From a virus, in the IMG/VR virus record IMGVR_UViG_3300020442_001263, positions 1 through 27,479 of that record: 27,479 bases of DNA; one strand, 5' to 3'. Below are positions 1 to 23,076 of the stretch, piece after piece. Below the pieces are notes generated by a model. It worked only from the letters and a program-made list of their open reading frames with translations, ran no database searches and had not been told where the DNA came from. Every line of letters begins with the position of its first letter. Positions within the stretch are counted from its first letter, which is position 1. A program made the translations under genes and the position numbers.

Positions 1-448
1 GTACTTTATAGTCCTGTTGTTCAAGCCACCGTATCACATTATCCCAACGATCGTGTATGGGATCCTTATCTAGGCCAGGAAAGGACAAGTTATACTTCGA
101 TCTCCACAAAACAACAGACCTGTTGTTTGTAATTTTTACATTAGGGTGCCACAGTCCGTGAAGGGGATTAAACTCATCAACGTTGTTAATGAATCTGTAT
201 TTTGGGTTACTGTTAGTGGCATGAGTAACGGTTACGTTATTTCTTGGTAGCATTGTACTATACACATAGTACATTCGTTCTATTATAGTCTCGGGGTCGT
301 CGGGTGATTCTTTGAAGTCAAGATCATGCTTCCAATGGAAGTTGATGTTTACATCAGTGTCGTACTTTATAGAAGCGTTATGAGCGTATCCCAATCCTGT
401 TACAAAATCACCATAACCAAATCCACTTCGCCATTCAATTTTCAACAT
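1..448 (-). CDS. Partial GT-B-like glycosyltransferase or related protein (3' end cut by window edge)
   Basis: I translated this frame by hand: it is open from an ATG at 448 to the window edge, 149 codons with no stop. The first residues read MLKIEWRSGFGYGDFVTGLGY, minus the last residue a glycine-rich first strand and loop like those opening the N-terminal Rossmann domain of GT-B or heptosyltransferase-like enzymes. Near residues 116-149 a second strand-helix unit begins (VVLWRSK, then a helix with RWDNVIRWLEQQ), where the second Rossmann domain of such enzymes would start. The gene overlaps the stop of the upstream oxygenase-like gene by 14 bases, so translation is probably coupled; no clear Shine-Dalgarno is visible. 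The family assignment is inference from fold-like pattern only. That the frame is a real gene is well supported by length, codon content and operon position. Confidence 0.6.
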   Translation of the reverse strand, partial: MLKIEWRSGFGYGDFVTGLGYAHNASIKYDTDVNINFHWKHDLDFKESPDDPETIIERMYYVYSTMLPRNNVTVTHATNSNPKYRFINNVDEFNPLHGLWHPNVKITNNRSVVLWRSKYNLSFPGLDKDPIHDRWDNVIRWLEQQDYKV

Positions 449-1130
449 CTGTTTTGGGACCCATAGAGTCAATGTCAACGGGTATGTTACCTACACCAGT
501 ACATTCTTCAATAAGACTTTTCCAAAGTTCTCGGTGCTTTACAACCCATCCTATTGTTAATCTTGGCTTCTTAGTATAAGCAGTGTGCCAGAAAAGATTG
601 TCCATTTCATATCTTATATCGTTATAGTAACCAAATCTAAAATTCCAACCAGGTACATCTTGGAGAACCGTAAATTCATTTGTTTGCTGATTGTAATACT
701 TGAAGTACCCGTCACCGTCCATACTATATGTCATAAGGAAATTATATCCAGGTGCACCTCCATTGTGATGCCAACCTATAAAACCTTCTTCGGGATAGAA
801 CATAGTTAGAGCATTATGCGGAGATCCAATATAATTTACTAATCTGTTTAAATAAGGAACCGCTATACTATTCCAATATACACCTTTAGCCTCTATTAGA
901 TTAGTGTCGACTCCATACGCGCAACGGGGCCAGTCAAACTCTTTAGCAGGACACTCCAGCGCCTTATAAAGGTACTCATCTGAGTATCCCGATAATCCAG
1001 CAAAATTGGACTCTCCGCGTACACAACGAGATGTCAGCTCACGCATTACCTCTTCATCATTAAAAACCGCATCAGCAAAACTTGATAGGATTTTCTGAAT
1101 CGTAGGGTTGATCATTGTAAGTTGGTACAT
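435..1130 (-). CDS. 2OG-Fe(II) oxygenase-like protein
   Basis: This 231-residue protein has the layout of a 2-oxoglutarate/Fe(II) dioxygenase double-stranded beta helix. GWHHN at 119-123 supplies the first metal histidine, FWH at 180-182 the distal histidine, and PRLTIGW places Arg190 eight residues later, as expected for the 2OG carboxylate contact. The usual HxD/E acid appears to be Asn123 if H121 is the first ligand. Family members often hydroxylate proteins, nucleobases or small molecules; the substrate here is unknown. The gene sits between two glycosyltransferase-like genes. The ATG at 1130 has AGGA about ten bases upstream but makes a 59-base overlap with the preceding gene. An in-frame ATG at 1046 (residue 29) would remove the overlap, though its ribosome site is poorly spaced. 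I kept the longer start because residues 7-28 look like coding sequence. Confidence 0.6.
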   Translation of the reverse strand: MYQLTMINPTIQKILSSFADAVFNDEEVMRELTSRCVRGESNFAGLSGYSDEYLYKALECPAKEFDWPRCAYGVDTNLIEAKGVYWNSIAVPYLNRLVNYIGSPHNALTMFYPEEGFIGWHHNGGAPGYNFLMTYSMDGDGYFKYYNQQTNEFTVLQDVPGWNFRFGYYNDIRYEMDNLFWHTAYTKKPRLTIGWVVKHRELWKSLIEECTGVGNIPVDIDSMGPKTDVEN

Positions 1131-1872
1131 TCTCTAGATTCCTAGCTACTACCTTTTTCCAGTACTCCATACTACAGTACATATCTCTTGGTATTTGATA
1201 CACAACTGGAGACTTTACATCAACAGTTTGTCTACCTTCGGGTAACACACAATTGAACCTTCTGTCACCCTCTACAACCCTATCCTTAAACTTCTCGTAT
1301 TCAGGATACATTGCATTTACCATTGACCATAAAGTAAACATATCAAACCCTCTCCATATATCATGTGACCACTCATCATGTGGCCATGGGTTTGCTAATT
1401 GTTTTATATACTCGTTCCACCACGTATCGATAAACTCAACATTAAGATCATTCTTTTTGTACCAAGCTACTGCACCGTGAAAGTAAGGAAACAGTTTCCT
1501 ATCCTTATCGATATACTCAAGCTCCCTTCTAGCAATAGTATATACTAGATTTTTGGTCATGTGTATTTTATCTGTAATACCATCAAATACCTTTGCTATG
1601 TCAGGATGTATTATAATCGAATCGCAATCATTATAGAATGTATTATCATAAGGAGTCCGAGCCATGCACCACATCTTTGCACGTCTGTGGACTGGAATAT
1701 TGGTGACTATATTATCAAAAAGCTGGACAGCTCTATCATCTACAAACGTATCGTGTGTAAATAAGGTAACGTGAGCTTGTGGGTGCAAATCCTTTAGTGA
1801 TTGAGCTGATAGAATAGCTAACTCATAATACATCGCATTAAGAGATGCAACGTAGATATAACCATTATTCAT
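1072..1872 (-). CDS. GT-A fold glycosyltransferase (GT8-like)
   Basis: This 266-residue protein resembles small phage nucleotide-sugar transferases of the GT-A fold. Visible elements are an N-terminal strand-helix (YIYVASLN, then a helix ending LKDLHP), a second strand VTLFTH at 35-40, the metal-binding DxD as NDCDS with Asp82 and Asp84, FHGAVAWYKK at 131-140 where GT8-like enzymes have an acceptor-side strand, and HDEWSHDIW at 165-173 with acidic and histidine residues in the likely active site. No signal peptide or membrane segment is seen, so it should act in the host cytoplasm. Its start overlaps the preceding stop by eight bases. The acceptor could be host surface glycan precursors, phage DNA or virion proteins; nothing in the sequence decides. 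The family call is fairly safe, the substrate is not known. Confidence 0.7.
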   Translation of the reverse strand: MNNGYIYVASLNAMYYELAILSAQSLKDLHPQAHVTLFTHDTFVDDRAVQLFDNIVTNIPVHRRAKMWCMARTPYDNTFYNDCDSIIIHPDIAKVFDGITDKIHMTKNLVYTIARRELEYIDKDRKLFPYFHGAVAWYKKNDLNVEFIDTWWNEYIKQLANPWPHDEWSHDIWRGFDMFTLWSMVNAMYPEYEKFKDRVVEGDRRFNCVLPEGRQTVDVKSPVVYQIPRDMYCSMEYWKKVVARNLENVPTYNDQPYDSENPIKFC

Positions 1873-2347
1873 CTTTAAAACTTAACTCATCAAGATAATC
1901 TAGATAACCAACACAATCCATTTTTTTATCTTCAAGATATTTTTCGAACGCAACATATGCAATAAGGTTTAAGGTTATTTGATTCGGAGCTCGTCTTAAA
2001 GCAGATCTAATATCTTGACTAGCTTCTTTTATAAATGGCAACTCAAACATCTGAGCTTTTGTATCAAAAAGCTGTTTAAGTTCTACCGCCTCCTTTTTTC
2101 GTTGCTCATGCTCTTTTTCTCTTCGTTGATTGTCACGGTGTATCTTTAGCTCAGATTCATACTGAGCTCTAATCTCTTCAAGGTGGTAGTTTTCAACAAT
2201 ATAATCGAAGTATTCGTTTACTCCGACCTTGTCTTCGTGAGGTATTGAGAAAGACAGCTTTTCTGTAGATCCATCTTCATTGACAAGTTCACACTCTATA
2301 ACCTCGGGATTCAAAAGCCGAGGCTTCAATAATTTACTAAATTTCAT
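1865..2347 (-). CDS. Unrecognised protein with a charged coiled coil
   Basis: I do not recognise this 160-residue protein. The N-terminal 45 residues look like a small beta unit (repeated E/V strands around VIECELVNEDGS). Residues about 55-95 form a strongly charged helix rich in Glu, Lys, Arg and Gln, likely a coiled coil. The C-terminal 60 residues look helical (SALRRAPNQITLNLIAYVAF). It follows the hexapeptide-repeat gene with a two-base gap, and AGGA six bases before the ATG gives a good ribosome site. Its position immediately after a fibre-like gene and before modification enzymes would suit a fibre assembly chaperone or a small structural partner, but this is inference from context alone. 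Confidence 0.7.
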   Translation of the reverse strand: MKFSKLLKPRLLNPEVIECELVNEDGSTEKLSFSIPHEDKVGVNEYFDYIVENYHLEEIRAQYESELKIHRDNQRREKEHEQRKKEAVELKQLFDTKAQMFELPFIKEASQDIRSALRRAPNQITLNLIAYVAFEKYLEDKKMDCVGYLDYLDELSFKDE

Positions 2348-2349
2348 GT

Positions 2350-4272
2350 TTATCCTATTCTACGCCATAATGTAGTCTGTGAGATGGTTTGTATTGCAGA
2401 TCCAACTGAAGTTGCTCCAGAAGTGTATACAGCCGTTCCACCGTATTGAGCTCCTCCAGCAAATTGTGCAGGCCCTGCGAACCCTCCGGTACCGGTAAAT
2501 TGACCAATACCAGCAAACGCTACTGGTCCAACACCAGCAAACCCAGCTTGTCCACCAAACTGCGCAGGTCCTGTGTATTGTGCACCGCCAGCAAATTGTG
2601 CTAAACCAGTAAACTGAGCTAAACCACCATATTGAACCGGTCCATAGTATATGTCGGTAGTAAAGTATTGAGCTGGGCCAGTATATGTAACAGGTCCGTA
2701 ATATATGTCAGTATTAAAATACTGTACAGTAACAAAATATTGAGCTGGGCCAGTGAATTGCTGTACAGAAACATACTGCGTACCCGGACCGTAGTAAACA
2801 ACGAATGGACCGGCATATGATATTGGGGGGCCAGCAAATGCTGTTACAGGACCACTAAATTGAAAGGGTCCATAGTATTGTCCTACCCCTGTAAAGGTTC
2901 CGGTACCAGCAAAATTAGCAGGTAGTGGTCCATAGTAATCAATTGGTTCACCAAACGGTCCAAACGTGCCATCAGTAAACGGTACATTTGGAATTACTCC
3001 GGAATACTGTTTAGGTCCAACATAGTAAGCAAGTCCTGCAAACCACTGAAAACCTGCAAATTGTTGTTGACCAAAGTATTGAACTCCAGGACCCTGAAAA
3101 GTTGGTGGTCCGCCACCTTGCCCTGGTTGAAAGAAAGGATTTTCAGACCCCGCAAATGTTGCGGTTCCTGCAAACTGAGCTGTCCCAGTGAAACCCGTTG
3201 TCCCAGCAAATGGATTAGTTCCTACAAATGTAGTTTGACCAGTAAACGAACCAGTCCCAGCAAATGGATTTGTACCGACAAAAGTAGTTTGACCGGTGAA
3301 CTGTGCTGGACCAGTAAACTGAGCTGGACCAGTAAAATTACCCCCTCCACCAAATTGTGCTTGACCTGTAAATTGAGCTGGTCCAGTGTATGTAACTGGA
3401 GCAATACTAGTAAACTGAGCAGGTCCGCTATACTGTACAGGACCTACATAAGTGAGTGGCCCCGTATACTGTGCGCCCCCACCAAACTGAGCAGGTCCAG
3501 TAAAACTGGCGCTCGCCGATGTACTTCGTCTAGTATCCGTGATCGTACCTACGTTTACCCAAGTACCGGGAGTTGGAGCTGATTGTTGTAGAAGATACTT
3601 GCCTATATTATTGTCAACAATTCTTGATCTGACTGCTCGAGCTAAATCCGCGATCTGACTGTCTGTCATTAACTGCAGACTTGCTTCATTAGTATACGGT
3701 GCATATCTCAAAGGTCGGCACAGCAGCGTCGTTGAGTCAGTAATCTTTTTATACAGGAATGTTGAATTACTATTTGACTTGTCCACCTCATCCATGAGAG
3801 TAGCAGCAACTGTCCACGTACCACCATGAGCACTTGCGGGCGATGTATTTGATATCCTATAACACCCAGCAGCTTCATTTGTAACCATGTGGGTGATTAT
3901 GTCGTCTGCAAACGCGTCTAACTCCGTGTCAGTGAATTGACGAATAGCAGTGATATCATAGTCCCATGTAACAGGTTTATCTGAAGGATTGCCTATGTTA
4001 TTTGTGACTAGGTCTTGATAGAGAGTTATTGTGTTGGATGTAATACTAATGTCAGAAGAGCCTACGTCTTCTGTCCTAGTATCAACGTGAGTACCTATAG
4101 ATGTGTAGTTGCCATTTGACCCAGCTGTAAGAAAAAGATCTCCAGCTCCATCAGAAGAGGCAAACTTCTCTAACACTTTGTCTGCAATAGCAGTAAACTC
4201 AGCGTTAGAAACCATTTGAACCAAGGCTTCTCCCGGATGAGTTTTTAAGGTAAGTGTATTAGGTCTGGCCAC
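2350..4272 (-). CDS. Virion protein with three N-terminal repeat units and about 57 aromatic-glycine hexapeptides
   Basis: This 640-residue protein has two parts. Residues 1-256 contain three diverged copies of one unit, near 22-70, 115-165 and 203-250: a helix like ELDAFADDIITHMV, then a glycine and aromatic turn, then GTW or NYT with a short strand ending VGTITDTR or similar. Residues 257-621 are a run of [F/Y]-x-G-x-x-x hexads, many reading FTGPAQ, YTGPAQ or FAGGAQ; the run is interrupted around 377-388 and 430-450. The last residues (TLWRRIG) are non-repetitive. Start is GTG at 4272, two bases after the upstream stop, with a G-rich GGGGTGG before it. The composition and operon position suggest an elongated virion or adhesion protein; such repeats occur in marine T4-like phages, but I know no defined function. 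Confidence 0.8.
   Translation of the reverse strand: MARPNTLTLKTHPGEALVQMVSNAEFTAIADKVLEKFASSDGAGDLFLTAGSNGNYTSIGTHVDTRTEDVGSSDISITSNTITLYQDLVTNNIGNPSDKPVTWDYDITAIRQFTDTELDAFADDIITHMVTNEAAGCYRISNTSPASAHGGTWTVAATLMDEVDKSNSNSTFLYKKITDSTTLLCRPLRYAPYTNEASLQLMTDSQIADLARAVRSRIVDNNIGKYLLQQSAPTPGTWVNVGTITDTRRSTSASASFTGPAQFGGGAQYTGPLTYVGPVQYSGPAQFTSIAPVTYTGPAQFTGQAQFGGGGNFTGPAQFTGPAQFTGQTTFVGTNPFAGTGSFTGQTTFVGTNPFAGTTGFTGTAQFAGTATFAGSENPFFQPGQGGGPPTFQGPGVQYFGQQQFAGFQWFAGLAYYVGPKQYSGVIPNVPFTDGTFGPFGEPIDYYGPLPANFAGTGTFTGVGQYYGPFQFSGPVTAFAGPPISYAGPFVVYYGPGTQYVSVQQFTGPAQYFVTVQYFNTDIYYGPVTYTGPAQYFTTDIYYGPVQYGGLAQFTGLAQFAGGAQYTGPAQFGGQAGFAGVGPVAFAGIGQFTGTGGFAGPAQFAGGAQYGGTAVYTSGATSVGSAIQTISQTTLWRRIG
2410..3504 (-). 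repeat. Array of about 57 hexapeptide-coding units (18-base period)
   Basis: On the minus strand the coding sequence repeats with a basic period of 18 bases, each unit giving an aromatic residue, any residue, usually glycine, then three variable residues often ending in Gln. About 57 units fit in 365 residues; the mean is slightly above six because some units carry one to several extra residues. DNA identity between distant units is low to moderate while the protein pattern is kept, which implies selection on the pattern rather than only recent duplication. Confidence 0.85.
3202..3309 (-). repeat. 54-base tandem duplication (three hexads) inside the array
   Basis: Two adjacent 54-base units (3202-3255 and 3256-3309) both begin CCCAGCAAATGGATT on the plus strand and encode FTGQTTFVGTNPFAGT-type blocks. 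They are much closer to each other than to the neighbouring units. A second spaced pair offset by the same 54 bases, starting at 2641 and 2695, encodes the TDIYYGPV blocks (24 of the first 30 bases match). Confidence 0.8.
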
Positions 4273-4274
4273 AA

Positions 4275-4880
4275 TTAACCACCCCAGACTATAGTGTTAG
4301 CCTCATCCCTAATTGTAAGACGCCTATTTGAACTGTCAAAAAGAGATCCAACAGTCAAGCTATCAACACTTAAACTGTTAGCGCCAACATTAAAATCTAA
4401 ACCAGAACCTACGATGATAGGACCACCCATAGTACTGTGGTTACCACAGTTGTAGTGTAGTCTTGAAGGTGCCTCCATGGGTACTCTAAAACTGACTACA
4501 CCAACTTCTGTTCCATTGCCAGTAATACCAACCGTGTACTGGCTAGTGTTACCAGTTGTATTGGCTGTGTTAATATAGAAAGGATGGCCAGCTGCATTAA
4601 CGTCAAACTTATACAACTCACCTCTGTTAAGGTACAGAGTGGGGTTACTATTACCAAATGTACCAGTTCCATTAACAACGTAAGCACCAGCTCCACTGTT
4701 GGTTACAGTAAAATGGTTGGCAAGACTGGACCCATCACCGGTTAACGTACCGGCAAAGGTATTGTTTGCTGTCAATGAAGCAGCATCGTTTAGAATCTTG
4801 TTAGTAGTCAAACGCCACTTGTTAAACGAGTCCGATAACTCTACGTTTGCTACTGGGGATCCGGAAAATACAATAGTCAT
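4275..4880 (-). CDS. Virion protein with cupredoxin-like domain
   Basis: This 201-residue protein starts with a short docking-like motif (ANVELSDSFNKW, residues 11-22) that two fibre genes in the window share. Residues 78-160 look like a cupredoxin beta sandwich: LYLNRGELYKFDV, then AGHPFYI with His99, then HYNCGNHSTMGG with Cys145, His148 and Met151. This His...Cys-x2-His-x2-Met set is the full ligand pattern of a type 1 copper site. Proteins with this GHPF...C..H..M pattern occur in structural regions of marine T4-like phages; whether they bind copper in the virion is not something I can state. The C-terminal 40 residues are strand-rich (SLSVDSLTVGSL). A CATAAATA late-promoter box lies about 26 bases upstream, so this gene may begin its own transcript. 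The ribosome site is weak (GGGT eight bases upstream). Confidence 0.78.
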   Translation of the reverse strand: MTIVFSGSPVANVELSDSFNKWRLTTNKILNDAASLTANNTFAGTLTGDGSSLANHFTVTNSGAGAYVVNGTGTFGNSNPTLYLNRGELYKFDVNAAGHPFYINTANTTGNTSQYTVGITGNGTEVGVVSFRVPMEAPSRLHYNCGNHSTMGGPIIVGSGLDFNVGANSLSVDSLTVGSLFDSSNRRLTIRDEANTIVWGG

Positions 4881-4905
4881 CTTTTACCCACTTTACGTTT
4901 TGTTA

Positions 4906-4913
4906 TATTTATG
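4906..4913 (-). promoter_or_regulatory. Putative T4-type late promoter box (CATAAATA)
   Basis: The minus strand reads CATAAATA, matching the NATAAATA late consensus of T4-like marine phages (T4 itself uses TATAAATA). It lies 26 bases before the ATG of the cupredoxin-domain gene, which would give a short leader, and overlaps the stop codon of the upstream assembly-chaperone gene (4909-4911). Confidence 0.55.
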
Positions 4914-5397
4914 GCTTTGTTGGCCACGTTATGGTATTTGGGAACCCTGCTTGCGCAGGAACATCACGTAGCGCCTGCCTATATGTGGTCATTTCAGAAG
5001 ACATTGTTACGTCTGACAGAGCATAGAAATCTGTTTCTGCTAGCAACGAGTCTCTTTTAGCTCTTTCCGTTTCTGCAAGAGCACTAGTAACTTGGGCATC
5101 ATAATCTGATTGTTGTTGTTCAACTGTAACGGTATCTCCGTTCTCATCAGTGTACTCTACAAACTTAGAAGCTGTAACCCATCGCTCTTTCCAAACACCA
5201 TCTACCTGCTCAATACCGTCTTTGTATGCAATTTGATAATTATTAACAGATGGAGCATCAACTGCAGCAACTTCCTCTACACCTAACGCGCGGAGAGTGT
5301 TACTAGTCCAGTATTGTGGCAAGGACATATTTTTATTTTCTTCAATGAGCTGGACTCTTGTTTTTGGCTGCCCAGTGGCCAACTCTACGTATGTCAT
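4909..5397 (-). CDS. Tail-fibre/tail assembly chaperone (Phage_tail_APC-like)
   Basis: This 162-residue protein has the two-part layout of phage tail-fibre assembly chaperones. The N-terminal part (residues 1-60) carries KTRVQLIEENKNMSLP and an ALGVEEV segment, and the middle is a charged helix (AQVTSALAETERAKRDSLL). The C-terminal 50 residues match the assembly-chaperone signature: R-x-LLAETD, then YRQALRDVP, then GFP-x3-ITWP-x2-P at the end. Proteins of this kind help fold or trimerise the distal adhesin encoded next to them and usually are not in the virion. It directly follows the LamG-domain gene, its likely client, with a 12-base gap that holds a strong TAGGAG ribosome site seven bases before the ATG. 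Confidence 0.82.
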   Translation of the reverse strand: MTYVELATGQPKTRVQLIEENKNMSLPQYWTSNTLRALGVEEVAAVDAPSVNNYQIAYKDGIEQVDGVWKERWVTASKFVEYTDENGDTVTVEQQQSDYDAQVTSALAETERAKRDSLLAETDFYALSDVTMSSEMTTYRQALRDVPAQAGFPNTITWPTKP

Positions 5398-5409
5398 CTG
5401 ATTCTCCTA

Positions 5410-7638
5410 TCAGAACTTTGGATGAGAGCTTGTCGGTGGAGAGAAACCACTTGATGTATATCGGGCTATACCCATAGTGATTCTAAAGTCGTCAACGTAA
5501 CCACCGAGCCTCCTAGTATTATTGTGCATGCTGCCGATCACCAAATTAGTCGATTCGTAATCAGTAGTGTCGGAAGCTGTAATTACCTGTGTTCCATTTA
5601 TATACAACTTAGTACCTTGAGCACCACCTAAACCACCGTGGCATGTTCTAACTAATGCAAAGTGGTACCACTGTCCGGTTGTTGGTGCAGAAGCGGTAGC
5701 AGTAAATGTACTAGCATCTGCATGAATAAACCACTTTCCATTAGCAGGTGAAGTACCAAGAGCCAACCCGTCATTAGTTGCATTTTCATTCTGCTTGGAA
5801 ATTTCAAAAATTCCCATACCTGCAACCGATACTGGATTGGTAGTAAAATATACCCACCCCTCTATAGTTGCATCGCCTTGTCTTACAACAAATGGATCCT
5901 TACGATATATCTGCAGGTAGCTACCAGTATAATTTGACGGAGACCTATCATGCGCAGTGATTACATCTCCGGTACCATCAAACACTAAACCCCCAACGCC
6001 GAACTTTTTGACTGCAGATGAGGCTTGGGCATCGTCTTGCAAGACTAAATTGTTTATTCCAGTCTTGTCAAGTATCGTTGCATCCTGGGCTCTTAAAATT
6101 AATTCCGTTGTAGAACTAAAGGTTGTTAGTGTCGGACTAGATGGTACTGTGATAGTAGTGTCTAATGAATTACCATACGCTGCACTACCTCTAACCGATC
6201 TTATGTTGGACAGGTACCCATCTAGATAAAAATTGGCGTAGTTGCTGTGCACACCAATAGTAGTTGTGTCCGAGCCTGTTCCCATGTCGTAGTTGTAGGT
6301 AGTCGGGCTTAAAACTCGTCTACCATTATTATACATGGCCAGCTGGTTATTGTATCTTGTTACAACAATATGATTCCACGCACCTGCTCTTACTTTATCA
6401 TTCGCCGCACTCGATGATTTTACTTCGCTACCACTAGCCCCAGCATAAATTGTAATTCTACCAGAACTATCAATACCAATATAACGATTACTAGTGCTCT
6501 GACCAGCAATCATAGCAAAAACGCTGCGCCATTTATTAATATAAACCCAGCACTCGAAAGTGAAATCAGCTGTGCCGTAAGTTAAAGAGCGGCCGCTTGA
6601 AACAACTAACTGAGCATTTGGGTCGCTAGGAAAACCAAATGATCCTCCTGTACCGGAAATTGTAACTGGCCCATCTTTTCTAAATGGCGACCACGCTGAC
6701 ATTCTCGCGCGGTATTCACCTACAAACTCATTATCAAGTTCTTTATTTACATCAGTGGTAGACGGGGTGTTTCCTTCGCTATAAAAATCATGCCTATGAA
6801 AAGCCAAGAACATAGTATTATTTGGCACATCTGATAGTGCAAACTTTGCTGTCGGTACAGCAAAGTTACTGGTTGGATCATATACTGCTTGATTTCTAAC
6901 TATCCTTAAATTAGATAGGTTACATCGATTGTATCTATTGGTAGTTGTTTGGTGCCCTATGTGGAGAGCTCGACTGGCTCCTCCTCCTATAGAGTTACCA
7001 TATGAAGCACTTCCAGCATTTACACCATTTACACAAATGTAAATTGTACGGTTTACACCATCAGTCAAATGTCCAATGATCGCAATGTGATACCATTGGT
7101 TTACTTTAGTTAAAGGATTAGTAGTTGAATTTACCTGACTTGCATTATTAGTATCAAAGTAAATGTTTTGACCATTTTGATGTACAGCCCACCATTGTTC
7201 AGAATTAGTACCTTGGGTTGCGTTTGTGTCTAAGATTGTTGCAAGACTACCAGATGAATAGCTAGTGTTGAGTGTACTTGGCTTAAACCAAAACTCAATA
7301 GTAAACTCGCCATTTACACCAGCCAATGTTTGGCCCGAATGGTAATCGCCTTGGGTTTCTACACGAGAATAATTTACAGATGAGCCTTCCAGAACATTGG
7401 TTGCTCCACTTAAATCAACAGACCAGTTTGGAAGAAAAGGACTGAAAGCACCCTTGGAAACATACGAACTGTCTGTAATGGTATAGTTGCCAGCCGTATC
7501 AGTAATTGTACTGTTGTTGTCACCGTTAACTGCATCACCATCAATGAGAAGGGTTACGTTTTTAAAGGTGTTGTCACCTTCTCCAGTACCCGCCTGCCCT
7601 GCGGCTGCCTGCATCAATAGTTTGGAATTTTTGCTCAT
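5410..7638 (-). CDS. Adhesin-like virion protein with three LamG/concanavalin-like domains
   Basis: This 742-residue protein contains three copies of a laminin-G/concanavalin A-like jelly roll. Each copy has a hydrophobic strand (FTIEFWFKP at 112, FTFECWVYIN at 359, ATIEGWVYF at 591), a W-x-H strand (QWYHIAII at 181, AWNHIVVTR at 420, QWYHFALVR at 657) and a terminal strand (LSNLRIVRN at 241, LSNIRSVRG at 476, VDDFRITMG at 715). These folds commonly bind glycans, which fits a receptor-binding or host-surface adhesin. The copies are well diverged. The N-terminal 25 residues are Ala/Gly-rich and lack the docking motif of the neighbouring fibres. The ATG at 7638 overlaps the upstream stop (TAATG). 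Its assembly chaperone candidate follows at once. Function as a receptor-binding protein is inferred. Confidence 0.82.
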   Translation of the reverse strand: MSKNSKLLMQAAAGQAGTGEGDNTFKNVTLLIDGDAVNGDNNSTITDTAGNYTITDSSYVSKGAFSPFLPNWSVDLSGATNVLEGSSVNYSRVETQGDYHSGQTLAGVNGEFTIEFWFKPSTLNTSYSSGSLATILDTNATQGTNSEQWWAVHQNGQNIYFDTNNASQVNSTTNPLTKVNQWYHIAIIGHLTDGVNRTIYICVNGVNAGSASYGNSIGGGASRALHIGHQTTTNRYNRCNLSNLRIVRNQAVYDPTSNFAVPTAKFALSDVPNNTMFLAFHRHDFYSEGNTPSTTDVNKELDNEFVGEYRARMSAWSPFRKDGPVTISGTGGSFGFPSDPNAQLVVSSGRSLTYGTADFTFECWVYINKWRSVFAMIAGQSTSNRYIGIDSSGRITIYAGASGSEVKSSSAANDKVRAGAWNHIVVTRYNNQLAMYNNGRRVLSPTTYNYDMGTGSDTTTIGVHSNYANFYLDGYLSNIRSVRGSAAYGNSLDTTITVPSSPTLTTFSSTTELILRAQDATILDKTGINNLVLQDDAQASSAVKKFGVGGLVFDGTGDVITAHDRSPSNYTGSYLQIYRKDPFVVRQGDATIEGWVYFTTNPVSVAGMGIFEISKQNENATNDGLALGTSPANGKWFIHADASTFTATASAPTTGQWYHFALVRTCHGGLGGAQGTKLYINGTQVITASDTTDYESTNLVIGSMHNNTRRLGGYVDDFRITMGIARYTSSGFSPPTSSHPKF

Positions 7639-8642
7639 TATCCAAGTGCCTGACCTGCAGTGAACCCGTAGTAAGTAGTACCGTTATCGTTAGAAACGAA
7701 TACAAACATATCTACGGCACTAGCAGTTGATGTAAGGGTAGGAGCTGTAGTCTCTGGCCAATCAACAGAGCCTGGCCAAGTAATCGTATAACCTGATCCC
7801 CCACTATCTTGGATTACTTTGATTGTAAAACCAATTGAGCCTGTAGAAGGTGGATTGGCAAATGTATACACAACGTTATTAGCTAATGTATGCTCAAAGT
7901 TCTGGAAAGAAGAAATATCAAAACTAGCCGCATTACCTGTTACAGTATTGGTAATAGTTTTGACAGATTCTACAAAAGTATTAGAGAATGTATTTGCCGA
8001 GCTGATACCCGTAGCAGAAACGCTAGTTGCACTAGTCACGCTTCCAATATGAACACCGGTTGTGTTACCAACTAGATTACCAGTGACATTTCCGACCACA
8101 CTTCCTGTATGAACACCTGCTGTGTTACCTGTAAGATTACCGGTTACGTTTCCAACAAGGTTGCCTGTTATATTGCCTGAAGCTCCTACTGTAGTAAATG
8201 AACCAGCTGCAGGGGTAGATCCTCCAACAATTCCATCCAAGTTACCAGTAACATTACCTGTTACGTTTCCAGTATGGTGTCCTGCTGTGTTGCCTGTAAG
8301 GTTTCCAGTTAGAGTTGACGCTGCGATGTTGAGGGCAGCTGTAACATTATTAGCAGTAAGGTTAGCTGTTACCGCAACACTTTTTACCCCAAGACTGTGA
8401 TTAATAGTTCCACTGTTAGCAGCTAGACTATGTGTAATGGTAACTGTATTTGAAGTAAGATCGGCCGTAGAAGTATCTTTAAGAGCTGTGATTCCATTTA
8501 CGGTAGTGTTACCTGAGACAATTACGTTGCCACCAACTGTTCCACCAGTATCGCGATAAGCAGAACCGATAATTTGGTTGGTAATGTTAAACCACGTTTG
8601 AAACGTGTCCGTGGTTTGTACGTTTGCTAAATTGAGTGCCAT
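7638..8642 (-). CDS. TGN-repeat tail fibre-like protein
   Basis: This 334-residue protein begins with the shared motif LANVQTTDTFQTWFNITN (residues 5-22), followed by a strand-rich GGTVGGNVIVSGNTTVNG unit. Residues 111-203 are TGN repeats (LTGN, VTGN, LVGN with TAGHHTG and TAGVHTG blocks), typical of trimeric phage fibre shafts. GGSTPAAGSFTTVG at 140-153 is a hallmark of marine phage fibres. Residues 225-334 form a C-terminal beta domain with a TITWPGSVDWPETTAPTL core and a FVSNDNGTTYYGF end, a module seen at the tips of phage fibres. It shares an almost identical DNA block with the next gene upstream. It is probably a structural fibre or fibre-tip protein; the receptor is unknown. Confidence 0.8.
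   Translation of the reverse strand: MALNLANVQTTDTFQTWFNITNQIIGSAYRDTGGTVGGNVIVSGNTTVNGITALKDTSTADLTSNTVTITHSLAANSGTINHSLGVKSVAVTANLTANNVTAALNIAASTLTGNLTGNTAGHHTGNVTGNVTGNLDGIVGGSTPAAGSFTTVGASGNITGNLVGNVTGNLTGNTAGVHTGSVVGNVTGNLVGNTTGVHIGSVTSATSVSATGISSANTFSNTFVESVKTITNTVTGNAASFDISSFQNFEHTLANNVVYTFANPPSTGSIGFTIKVIQDSGGSGYTITWPGSVDWPETTAPTLTSTASAVDMFVFVSNDNGTTYYGFTAGQALG
8034..8312 (-). repeat. TGN-repeat coding region of fibre 1
   Basis: Short coding repeats of (L/V)-(T/V)-G-N with larger blocks reading TAGHHTG, TAGVHTG and TTGVHIG. At the DNA level the blocks near 8043-8070, 8103-8130 and 8271-8300 resemble one another, and 8241-8300 matches 9072-9131 of the neighbouring fibre gene at 52 of 60 positions. 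Confidence 0.8.
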
Positions 8643-8648
8643 TCTTCT

Positions 8649-9554
8649 TCAAGCTCCCGAATTATTGTCTGATACAAGATCATCTATCTTTTTTGACAAT
8701 ACATCAATTTGTTGTTGTAACTGTTTATTAGACTCCACTAAAAAACCTATCAATCCATTATACCTTACACTCTTTGAACCATCTTTGTTTAACGATACTA
8801 AATTAGGTACAACATTTTCAAGTTCTTGAGCGACAACACCATAACTTGGTTGATTAGTTTGTTTCCATTCAAACGAAACGCCCCTCAATTGATTTATAAC
8901 ACTACTTGCGCCCGTAATAGTTTCAATGTTCTGTTTGAACGAAGCATCAGATGTACTGTTAAAATCTAATGCGCTAACTTCTCCAGTATATACTCCAGTG
9001 TTAGATGTAATAGTGCTAGTAACAATACTTGTTGAATTTACATTCGTAGTAACTACACTTACAGCACTGACGTTACCAGTTACATTACCAGTCACATTTC
9101 CTGTATGGTGTCCTGCTGTGTTACCAGTTAGATCACCGTTAACATCACCTGTTACATTACCAGCAAGATTACCAGTGACGTTACCTGTTACATCACCCGA
9201 CAGATTACCCGTCACATTACCGGTTACGTTGCCATTCAAGTTACCTGTAAATGTTGCTGCTGCTACTGTACTAAATGATGCAGATACACCACCAGTAACA
9301 GCACCGCTGGTTATACTTAATGTGCCATCTGTTATAGTACTACCTGTTAATGTACTGGTAGCTGTAACAGTATTTGCAGTCACACTGTTAGTAACATTTA
9401 AGCGCTGCAATAACGAAGTATTACCAGTTACAGTGAGAGTACCATTAATAGTACCGCCCACCCTAGGATATGCTGTACTGGAAATTTCGTTTGTGCGATT
9501 AAACCACGAACGATACGTATCAGTAATTTGCAGATTCGCATAACCCAGTGACAT
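8649..9554 (-). CDS. TGN-repeat tail fibre with C-terminal S74 intramolecular chaperone domain
   Basis: This 301-residue protein has the shared start YANLQITDTYRSWFNRTN (residues 5-22), a strand-rich stem, TGN repeats at 102-161 and a C-terminal peptidase S74 chaperone domain from about 201. The latter shows SDASFKQNI at 202-210, INQLRGVSFEWK, then YGVVAQELENVVPNLV and a final coiled coil (about 272-295). In characterised endosialidase and fibre chaperones a Ser and a Lys five residues later form the self-cleaving dyad. Ser202 and Lys207 have this spacing, so cleavage before Ser202 would release about 100 residues after trimer folding. A GAGG ribosome site lies seven bases before the ATG. It is a shaft-like fibre protein, with no obvious receptor domain between repeats and chaperone. 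Confidence 0.88.
   Translation of the reverse strand: MSLGYANLQITDTYRSWFNRTNEISSTAYPRVGGTINGTLTVTGNTSLLQRLNVTNSVTANTVTATSTLTGSTITDGTLSITSGAVTGGVSASFSTVAAATFTGNLNGNVTGNVTGNLSGDVTGNVTGNLAGNVTGDVNGDLTGNTAGHHTGNVTGNVTGNVSAVSVVTTNVNSTSIVTSTITSNTGVYTGEVSALDFNSTSDASFKQNIETITGASSVINQLRGVSFEWKQTNQPSYGVVAQELENVVPNLVSLNKDGSKSVRYNGLIGFLVESNKQLQQQIDVLSKKIDDLVSDNNSGA
9072..9251 (-). repeat. TGN-repeat coding region of the S74 fibre
   Basis: About fifteen four-residue units of (L/V)-(T/N/S/A)-G-(N/D) followed by a TAGHHTG block, coded by a 12-base repeat on the minus strand. Part of it (9072-9131) is nearly the same DNA as 8241-8300 in the adjacent fibre gene. Confidence 0.8.
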
Positions 9555-21675: not shown

Positions 21676-23076
21676 CTATAGCCCTACCTGTACATCTGTA
21701 ATAATACCGCCCGATACAATATACCGCACCTGATCAAAGCTACCCTTACCCGTAATGATTTCAAAGTTACCTCCTGTACCACCGCTAACAGCACCCGGGA
21801 TAGTAACATCACCTGCAAAAGCCCCTGCCGATGTTAACAATGTTGTTCCAAACTGGCTGTTACCTTCAAGAGAGCTGGCTGCAGTATTAGCAAACGCATC
21901 TAAATCAGCTTGTGCTTGTGGGTCTTGATCAAACGGTCTTGCAACAACCTCATCAATATTGGCCGTGAATTCTTTTACTGAACTAGGTGTTGCTACTTTG
22001 CCATCCGGTACTGCTTTCGCGGCTGGTAAATCCAACCCGGGAATAACACCCGCCAAGTGATTATCCATCTTAGATATCAGCTCTGTGCGATCAAGTTCAT
22101 CCTGCTTTCTTTGGTTCTCGAGATTAGCTACGTCCTGTACCTGCTGCGGTGTTCTATCCTGCACGGGAATTGCTGATGCGCTATTTCCTCGCGCCAATAT
22201 ATCTGCACGTGTTTCATCGGTCAGGTTCTGAACCAGTCCGGATACACCCCCCTGTAAACTAGACGGTAAGAAGTTTGGTGGCTTTCCTGTTACTTTACCA
22301 ATAGCAGTCTGTGCTTCAGAGACCGCGTCTATTACTTTATCGATATCTCCTACTGCACCTGCTATCTTTTCGTTTATTGTTTCAAGCACACTATCAACAG
22401 CATCTTCTTTGATTTCATAAGCACACAACTTCAAGTTCTGTTGTGCAGCGGAAGCAGCGCTAGCCAATCTTGCTAATGCGCTTGCAAACATCGCCAACTG
22501 TATTGCAAGGTCAATCATGGCGAGGGTATACGGACCGAAGAATTTACTAACCACCTTTCTAACCCAACTGATAATCTTTAGCGGATTACTAGGGAAGCTC
22601 ATCAGGCCATTAATAGCAGCAAGGTTTGCTAGCTCTGGTGCCGATGCCTTAATCTGGTCTTCTAATACCTTTGTATGGTCTTTAATAAACTGCTTAATAT
22701 TCTCACAGTCTGTATAGAATTCGATATCGTATATCATTCGCTCTACTTCTGCAGTAGGGAACAAGTCGCCAAAAGATGCATCACCAAAGTCAATAGTACC
22801 ATCTTCCTTAAACGTGATTGCTGACTTTGATTCAATAATGTGTGGTGCATCATCTGGCTTTGCAATATCTAATGCAGAAGCAGCAAGGTTAGCTTCCTCC
22901 CTCTTCTTACGACCGACATTAGTATAAGTCGATACTACAGTGCCCTTATTATTAATGATCTTGATATCGGTTTCATTAAGGTCTAGCTTAACAGCAGTCT
23001 TTGCACCTATGTTAGCTAGGCGCACTACCTTCTGAGCGTCTCTTTCAATTTTTAGTAGTTTGTTTTCAATACCCAT
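21676..23076 (-). CDS. Unrecognised hub-neighbour structural protein with an amphipathic/hydrophobic helix
   Basis: I do not recognise this 466-residue protein. Its N-terminus is a helix with charged residues (LLKIERDAQKVVRLANIG), followed by strands (LNETDIKIINNKGTVVSTY). Residues 107-150 are helical; 160-183 reads as a basic-hydrophobic segment (LKIISWVRKVVSKFFGPY) and 184-213 as an Ala/Leu/Met-rich helix (LAMIDLAIQLAMFASALARL) that could cross or touch a membrane. Residues 220-265 look coiled-coil. The last 25 (RYIVSGGIITDVQVGL) resemble the end of the gp5 homologue next to it (RIVTVTNGIITAV). It lies between gp5 and the Hc1-like gene, two bases after the gp5 stop. A central-hub, needle-associated or membrane-acting role is a guess from this context. 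Confidence 0.78.
   Translation of the reverse strand: MGIENKLLKIERDAQKVVRLANIGAKTAVKLDLNETDIKIINNKGTVVSTYTNVGRKKREEANLAASALDIAKPDDAPHIIESKSAITFKEDGTIDFGDASFGDLFPTAEVERMIYDIEFYTDCENIKQFIKDHTKVLEDQIKASAPELANLAAINGLMSFPSNPLKIISWVRKVVSKFFGPYTLAMIDLAIQLAMFASALARLASAASAAQQNLKLCAYEIKEDAVDSVLETINEKIAGAVGDIDKVIDAVSEAQTAIGKVTGKPPNFLPSSLQGGVSGLVQNLTDETRADILARGNSASAIPVQDRTPQQVQDVANLENQRKQDELDRTELISKMDNHLAGVIPGLDLPAAKAVPDGKVATPSSVKEFTANIDEVVARPFDQDPQAQADLDAFANTAASSLEGNSQFGTTLLTSAGAFAGDVTIPGAVSGGTGGNFEIITGKGSFDQVRYIVSGGIITDVQVGL

Follow-up and report, generated by a model that had tools for sequence, protein, structure and literature searches.

A long aromatic-glycine array, apparently looped out of a triplicated anchor domain, in a candidate tail adhesin of a T4-like virus

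Results

Genes at the locus

The window analysed here, a stretch of 27,479 nucleotides from an uncultured virus (IMG/VR record IMGVR_UViG_3300020442_001263), spans baseplate and tail-fibre genes of a T4-like myovirus whose gp6 is closest to those of Methylophilales and Pelagibacter phages (~40% identity). The gene for the array protein (Table 1) adjoins fibre and tail-assembly genes; the tail setting that had been proposed for it is therefore correct, and its position suggests that the protein is a component of the virion tail. A long ORF on the plus strand (3061-3582) is an antisense by-product of this gene. The gene at 4275-4880 was considered as a 2OG oxygenase and dropped, as it encodes a fibre-like protein without an oxygenase match. 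Other products of the region include a fibre-like protein of 742 aa in which LamG/concanavalin-like domains are matched three times (5410-7638; PF13385), a tail-fibre protein with a Peptidase_S74 intramolecular chaperone, 12/36-bp repeats and a weak Bactofilin match (8649-9554) and, between gp5-like and gp25-like baseplate genes, a 466-aa ORF without a PHROG match (21676-23076).

Table 1. Coordinates of the array gene, its parts and the two genes downstream
Feature	Position	Strand	Description	Basis
Array-protein gene	2350..4272	minus	640 aa, GTG start	ORF; orthologues L236 and L239 with matching neighbours
Anchor copy 1 (aa 1-97)	3982..4272	minus		copy 1 vs copy 2, E 2.7e-8
Anchor copy 2 (aa 98-183)	3724..3981	minus	complete, final strand TFLYKKI	profile match; helix and hairpin predicted in L240 model
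Anchor copy 3 (aa 184-251)	3520..3723	minus	runs to GTWVNVGTITDT, where the array appears to break it	copy 2 vs copy 3, E 4.9e-10
Array, regular stretch 1 (aa 257-375)	3148..3504	minus	[FY]xGxxx hexads	module count and coordinates
Array, irregular middle (aa 376-523)	2704..3147	minus	Pro/Gly-rich	low pLDDT over most of it; FGPxGEPIxxYGP kept in closest orthologue
Array, regular stretch 2 (aa 524-617)	2422..2703	minus		module count and coordinates
C-terminal strand (aa 618-640)	2353..2421	minus	ends in TISQTTLWRRIG; putative last strand of copy 3, beyond the insertion	score gain; family-conserved ETYTLYVRV-like end
Companion protein	1865..2347	minus	160 aa, charged	profile match directly downstream of array gene
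Glycosyltransferase-like protein	1072..1872	minus	266 aa, invariant DxD; overlaps 160-aa gene	alignment, Glyco_transf_8 match in one relative, synteny

Periodicity of the window array

The array protein contains 48 [FY]xG modules, the first starting at 3504 and the last ending at 2428 (minus strand), in agreement with the original prediction of an array at 2410-3504. The distance between neighbouring modules is exactly six residues in 35 cases, compared to 0.6 on average and at most 5 in 2000 shuffles of the same composition, and the autocorrelation of aromatic residues peaks at 6, 12, 18, 24 and 30. This confirms the predicted period of six with Gly at i+2; the predicted number of about 57 hexads was an overcount. 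Over ~360 residues, Phe or Tyr is found at almost every sixth position, usually with a small residue (A/G/T) at i+4. The array is discontinuous, two regular stretches being separated by an irregular middle (Table 1), and spacings of 5, 7 and 8 as well as gaps of 12-23 also occur. It is nearly uncharged (6 D/E, 1 K and 0 R in 361 aa) and rich in Gly, Pro and Gln. When the array is divided into quarters, sharing of 3-mers is highest between the first and the last (0.38, compared to 0.26 or less for other pairs). Codon use differs among identical hexapeptides, the four copies of FTGPAQ having four DNA versions; these synonymous spellings show that selection maintains the pattern in the protein, and that it did not arise by fresh expansion of DNA.

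A family of array proteins

Searches with the whole window protein identified no relatives in the phage collection, the viral contigs or the PDB, and no Pfam family at E 1. Relatives were reached through the DNA. A raw pattern of five successive [FY]xGxxx units matched mostly simple repeats and collagen-like [FY]SG repeats of viruses; the latter share the pattern but have Gly at every third residue, a feature absent from the window array. The proposed check for the pattern in other proteins thus returned mainly collagen-like sequences, yet it also revealed two true orthologues, L061 and L060 (L236 and L239 in their longer-flank versions, 57% and 41% identical to the window protein, respectively). 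Scans from the N-terminal domain of the orthologues gave eight loci, then 39 loci plus Phage C48C1 (Kyanoviridae), the sole match among 50,697 phage records; with the profile used, no relative was found in the bacterial and archaeal genome collection. Pfam, PHROGs and NCBIfam gave no convincing match to the family at the thresholds used, and it has only one named member, yet it extends over about 40 metagenomic virus contigs (the window, L236, L239, L240, L244 and L256 among them), with inserts of 74 to 3,064 aa. A literature search on phage C48C1 or YTGNYTG found no paper. As far as these libraries show, the array proteins form a real and undescribed family.

The hypothetical protein of C48C1 (WJE88074.1) is a true relative: it shares the N-terminal domain (28% identical across the matched segment) and, like the window protein, has the C-terminal motif and the downstream cassette described below. 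Unlike the window protein, it is 3,347 aa long, and its Arg-rich units are mainly tetrads and octads. Two further observations concern L236. Just upstream of its array locus lie two 2OG-Fe(II) oxygenase genes (4336-4923 and 4930-5535; PF13640), next to a gene for a collagen-repeat protein (2124-3989). In addition, comparison of L236 (5977-8037) with the near-identical contig L238 (5977-8040) shows a frameshift late in the L238 array with loss of the C-terminal motif, which is either a sequencing error or real variation.

Alignments place the array within a hairpin of a triplicated domain

Profile-profile alignment resolved aa 1-250 into three diverged copies of one ~80-aa domain (Table 1), and the triplicated N-terminal domain was found in the family as well. 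When copy 3 was compared with copy 2, joining the C-terminal tail of the protein to copy 3 raised the score from 57.5 to 67.3, a value reached by none of 60 column shuffles; the copy-3 alignment was extended by the true C-terminal tail only. The C-terminal motif (ETYTLYVRV, TTLWRRIG, KKLFLRIA and similar) is kept in complete family members, in which the array precedes a conserved [YT]xL[YW]xR strand. Since the final strand absent from copy 3 is provided by the C-terminus of the protein, the alignments place the array as an insertion within a beta-hairpin.

An AlphaFold2 model of the short-array relative L240, based on an alignment of 18 rows (pLDDT 71.6, pTM 0.68, with the array at low confidence), supports the insertion. 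Each anchor copy is predicted to contain a helix and two long strands. The strands form hairpin-like pairs in copy 1 (E62-73/E87-97) and copy 2 (E160-169/E175-183); in copy 3, strands E254-274 and E326-354 are separated by the array alone, their pairing being read from the order of secondary structures together with the sequence alignment. Combined, sequence and model are best read as a giant loop projecting from one hairpin of a three-copy anchor. The original prediction had recognized the array and missed both this position and the three-gene cassette.

A conserved cassette with a putative glycosyltransferase

In all relatives with downstream sequence, a gene of ~150 aa and then a glycosyltransferase-like gene of ~250 aa lie downstream of the array gene or genes, in the same orientation. 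The reading frames overlap in most cases, with a second array gene following in one lineage. Residues Y80, D82 and D84, which include the DxD motif, are invariant in 11 relatives of the glycosyltransferase-like protein. One relative matched Pfam Glyco_transf_8 (E 1.4e-3); the window protein itself gave no match to the Pfam glycosyltransferase families, and a chance-level match to Glycogenin-1 in the PDB (E 0.77) falls in the same region as the Glyco_transf_8 match. The direct support for a transferase consists of one sub-threshold-like Pfam match and the DxD motif; the array would be its putative substrate. The gene next beyond in the window (435-1130) encodes 231 aa, and a counterpart of ~225 aa is present in most relatives inspected.

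The arrays have two faces

Residues located between successive aromatics at even distance were counted by parity in 33 arrays, of which many are close relatives of one another. Gly and Arg are concentrated on the parity of the aromatics (39.5 vs 4.6% and 22.9 vs 0.3%, respectively), whereas Thr (5 vs 21%), Asn (3 vs 15%) and likewise Ser are enriched on the other. The same two-face rule holds array by array. Distances between [FY]xG modules are mostly even across the family, aromatic spacings of 4, 6, 8, 10 and 12 are mixed inside single arrays, and in homologous arrays Arg occupies i+4, on the aromatic face. A parity rule that holds across unit lengths is better explained by the alternation of a beta-strand than by disorder or by a solenoid with coils of fixed size. 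The window array is an Arg-free, Pro- and Gln-rich variant with some odd spacings, and the case for beta-strands is therefore less strong here than across the family.

Mirror order of the modules was also analyzed. At the level of blocks it is significant in several relatives; in the window array z is 0.3-0.8. Tests at the level of modules failed. Blocks lie in concentric order in several relatives, and in the L256 array protein (6980-9415) a ten-module block (modules 5-14) recurs in the same order at 67-76. Mirror order was set aside as proof of an out-and-back chain, since the L256 block runs in the same direction by eye and the window value is not significant.

Alternative folds of the array

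The original prediction proposed a solenoid. In this reading, the window hexads would form a left-handed beta-helix or a similar coil of three hexads per turn, with stacked Phe/Tyr replacing Ile/Leu/Val. The strict period of six across two stretches and the A/G/T residue at i+4 are features of the hexapeptide beta-helices (Pfam Hexapep), and the orthologue L060 has a sub-threshold Hexapep match (E 0.0068; 16.5 bits for a cut-off of 27). However, Hexapep proteins carry an aliphatic residue at i, where the window array has Phe/Tyr, with Gly at i+2 and no Pfam match. The structure prediction that had been suggested, run as AlphaFold2 on four sequences, drew strands of 3-4 residues every ~6 residues in the two regular stretches, although confidence was low (pLDDT 42.6 for the whole protein, 57-70 for the array). 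The array model resembled assorted beta-helices (VIA Z up to 14.6) and had no significant match in Foldseek. AlphaFold2 is known to produce false beta-solenoids for repeat sequences (PMC11795689), and such solenoids should not be trusted at face value. In addition, a normal core is too small for three large aromatics per coil, and relatives with spacings of 4, 6, 8 and 10 and with Arg on the aromatic face are ill-suited to a six-residue face and a buried core. Given the poor model, this bias, the mixed spacings and the Arg residues, we consider the solenoid itself unlikely, though it is the foremost alternative and keeps some probability for the array of the window; the part of the idea that stands is that ordered, aromatic-patterned beta-structure is the likelier state. 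Ice binding, for which the sole lead was a set of insignificant Foldseek rows of the poor model, was dropped. Binding to a glycan or a surface is a possible function of the array.

Alternatively, the array might be a disordered brush of stickers and spacers, in which evenly spaced aromatics (and Arg in relatives) are borne by a flexible chain of Gly, Gln, Thr and Pro that would act as an elastic and multivalent tether, comparable to FG-repeats or silk. Its nearly uncharged, Gly/Pro/Gln-rich composition would suit such a chain, as would the low pLDDT values in the L240 array and in the irregular middle of the window array. Under disorder, however, there is no evident reason for Gly and Arg to keep to the aromatic side and Thr, Ser and Asn to the other across unit lengths, and we regard a brush as a shade less probable still.

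An intertwined trimeric shaft with a shorter aromatic unit, modelled on the triple-stranded beta-helix of the T4 gp5 C-terminal part (octad VxGxxxxx), would agree with the likeness of VxG to [FY]xG, the alternating in/out residues and the tail-region location, but it is very improbable, as its chains run one way whereas the array must return to complete copy 3, and no sequence match to solved fibres was found.

Discussion

The reading that we prefer is a tail-associated adhesin in which a giant two-faced array, carried by the copy-3 hairpin of a triplicated anchor, forms an adhesive out-and-back fibre that is probably decorated by the glycosyltransferase-like protein; as a whole, it appears to us about as apt to be right as wrong. 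The repeat pattern, the triplication, the insertion at the level of sequence, the two-face alternation and the cassette are observed, whereas the hairpin fibre, its place in the virion, adhesion and glycosylation are inferred. The anchor core would be built from the three ~80-aa domains, each with strands, a helix and a beta-hairpin. The chain would pass through copies 1 and 2 and into copy 3 up to the outgoing strand of its hairpin, continue as the array and come back as the C-terminal strand. The array would most likely adopt extended beta-structure, with aromatics and Gly/Ala (Arg in relatives) on one face and small hydroxyl or amide residues plus Pro (Thr, Ser, Asn, Gln, Pro) on the other. 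From the particle it would project as a sticky hairpin with the irregular middle at its tip and grip the host surface through many weak aromatic contacts. The glycosyltransferase-like neighbour would probably decorate the hydroxyl face, with the ~150-aa protein as a possible chaperone or adaptor for glycosylation. By analogy with the systems discussed below, the most likely role of such a long two-faced beta-hairpin on the tail would be host-surface adsorption.

Several results count against a hairpin fibre. The array is of low confidence in the AlphaFold2 models of both the window protein and L240, mirror order is not significant in the window although it would be expected of an out-and-back chain, and odd spacings (5 and 7) as well as abundant Pro occur in the window array. 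For the array of 3,064 aa, a single hairpin would be implausibly long.

A bolder proposal can be made for these virus adhesins, namely that one hairpin of a triplicated, beta-prism-like anchor has grown into a two-faced beta-ladder of 74-3,064 residues, with aromatic-glycine (and arginine) pairing across antiparallel legs and a hydroxyl face glycosylated by the dedicated phage transferase of the cassette. This would be a fibre architecture unseen before, and we consider it doubtful. If the hairpin reading is true, even spacing and two faces would provide a simple rule for a long beta-fibre of freely variable length, and the cassette would be a candidate system by which a phage glycosylates an adhesin of its own virion.

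The cassette recalls glycosylated bacterial adhesins that have a dedicated neighbour transferase, such as AIDA-I/Aah and the serine-rich repeat proteins. In these systems too, a Thr/Ser-rich repeat adhesin is encoded beside a glycosyltransferase gene; they are bacterial, whereas the cassette of the window belongs to a phage and its glycosyltransferase is putative, being assigned from sequence.

Regarding the anchor, structural comparison of the L240 model ranked the MABP beta-prism 3tow (MVB12B; Z 7.4) and MPEG1 P2 (Z 6.0) first, with middling values under the level of kinship, and Foldseek gave no significant match for this model. In MPEG1/perforin-2, the P2 domain carries, on an MABP beta-prism, an extended hairpin that binds membrane lipids (PMC6753088). 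Together with the Bap1 loop described below, this hairpin is the nearest precedent for the proposed mechanism; unlike MABP, each anchor copy contains a predicted helix, and there is no sequence match.

A similar arrangement is found in Bap1 of Vibrio cholerae, in which an aromatic-rich loop of 57 aa lies within a beta-prism domain and attaches to surfaces and lipids; on membranes, the core of the loop becomes a beta-hairpin (PMC12965690). Both proteins have an aromatic-rich, pseudo-repeated loop inside a domain, the anchor here being a candidate beta-prism. The Bap1 loop, with four WbpKpnmY pseudo-repeats, belongs to a bacterial biofilm protein, whereas the window has 360 aa of [FY]xGxxx, and no sequence kinship is claimed. 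We regard Bap1 and MPEG1 as analogies of the array and not as its kin; if the analogy is true, the array protein would be a phage counterpart of the bacterial aromatic adhesive loops.
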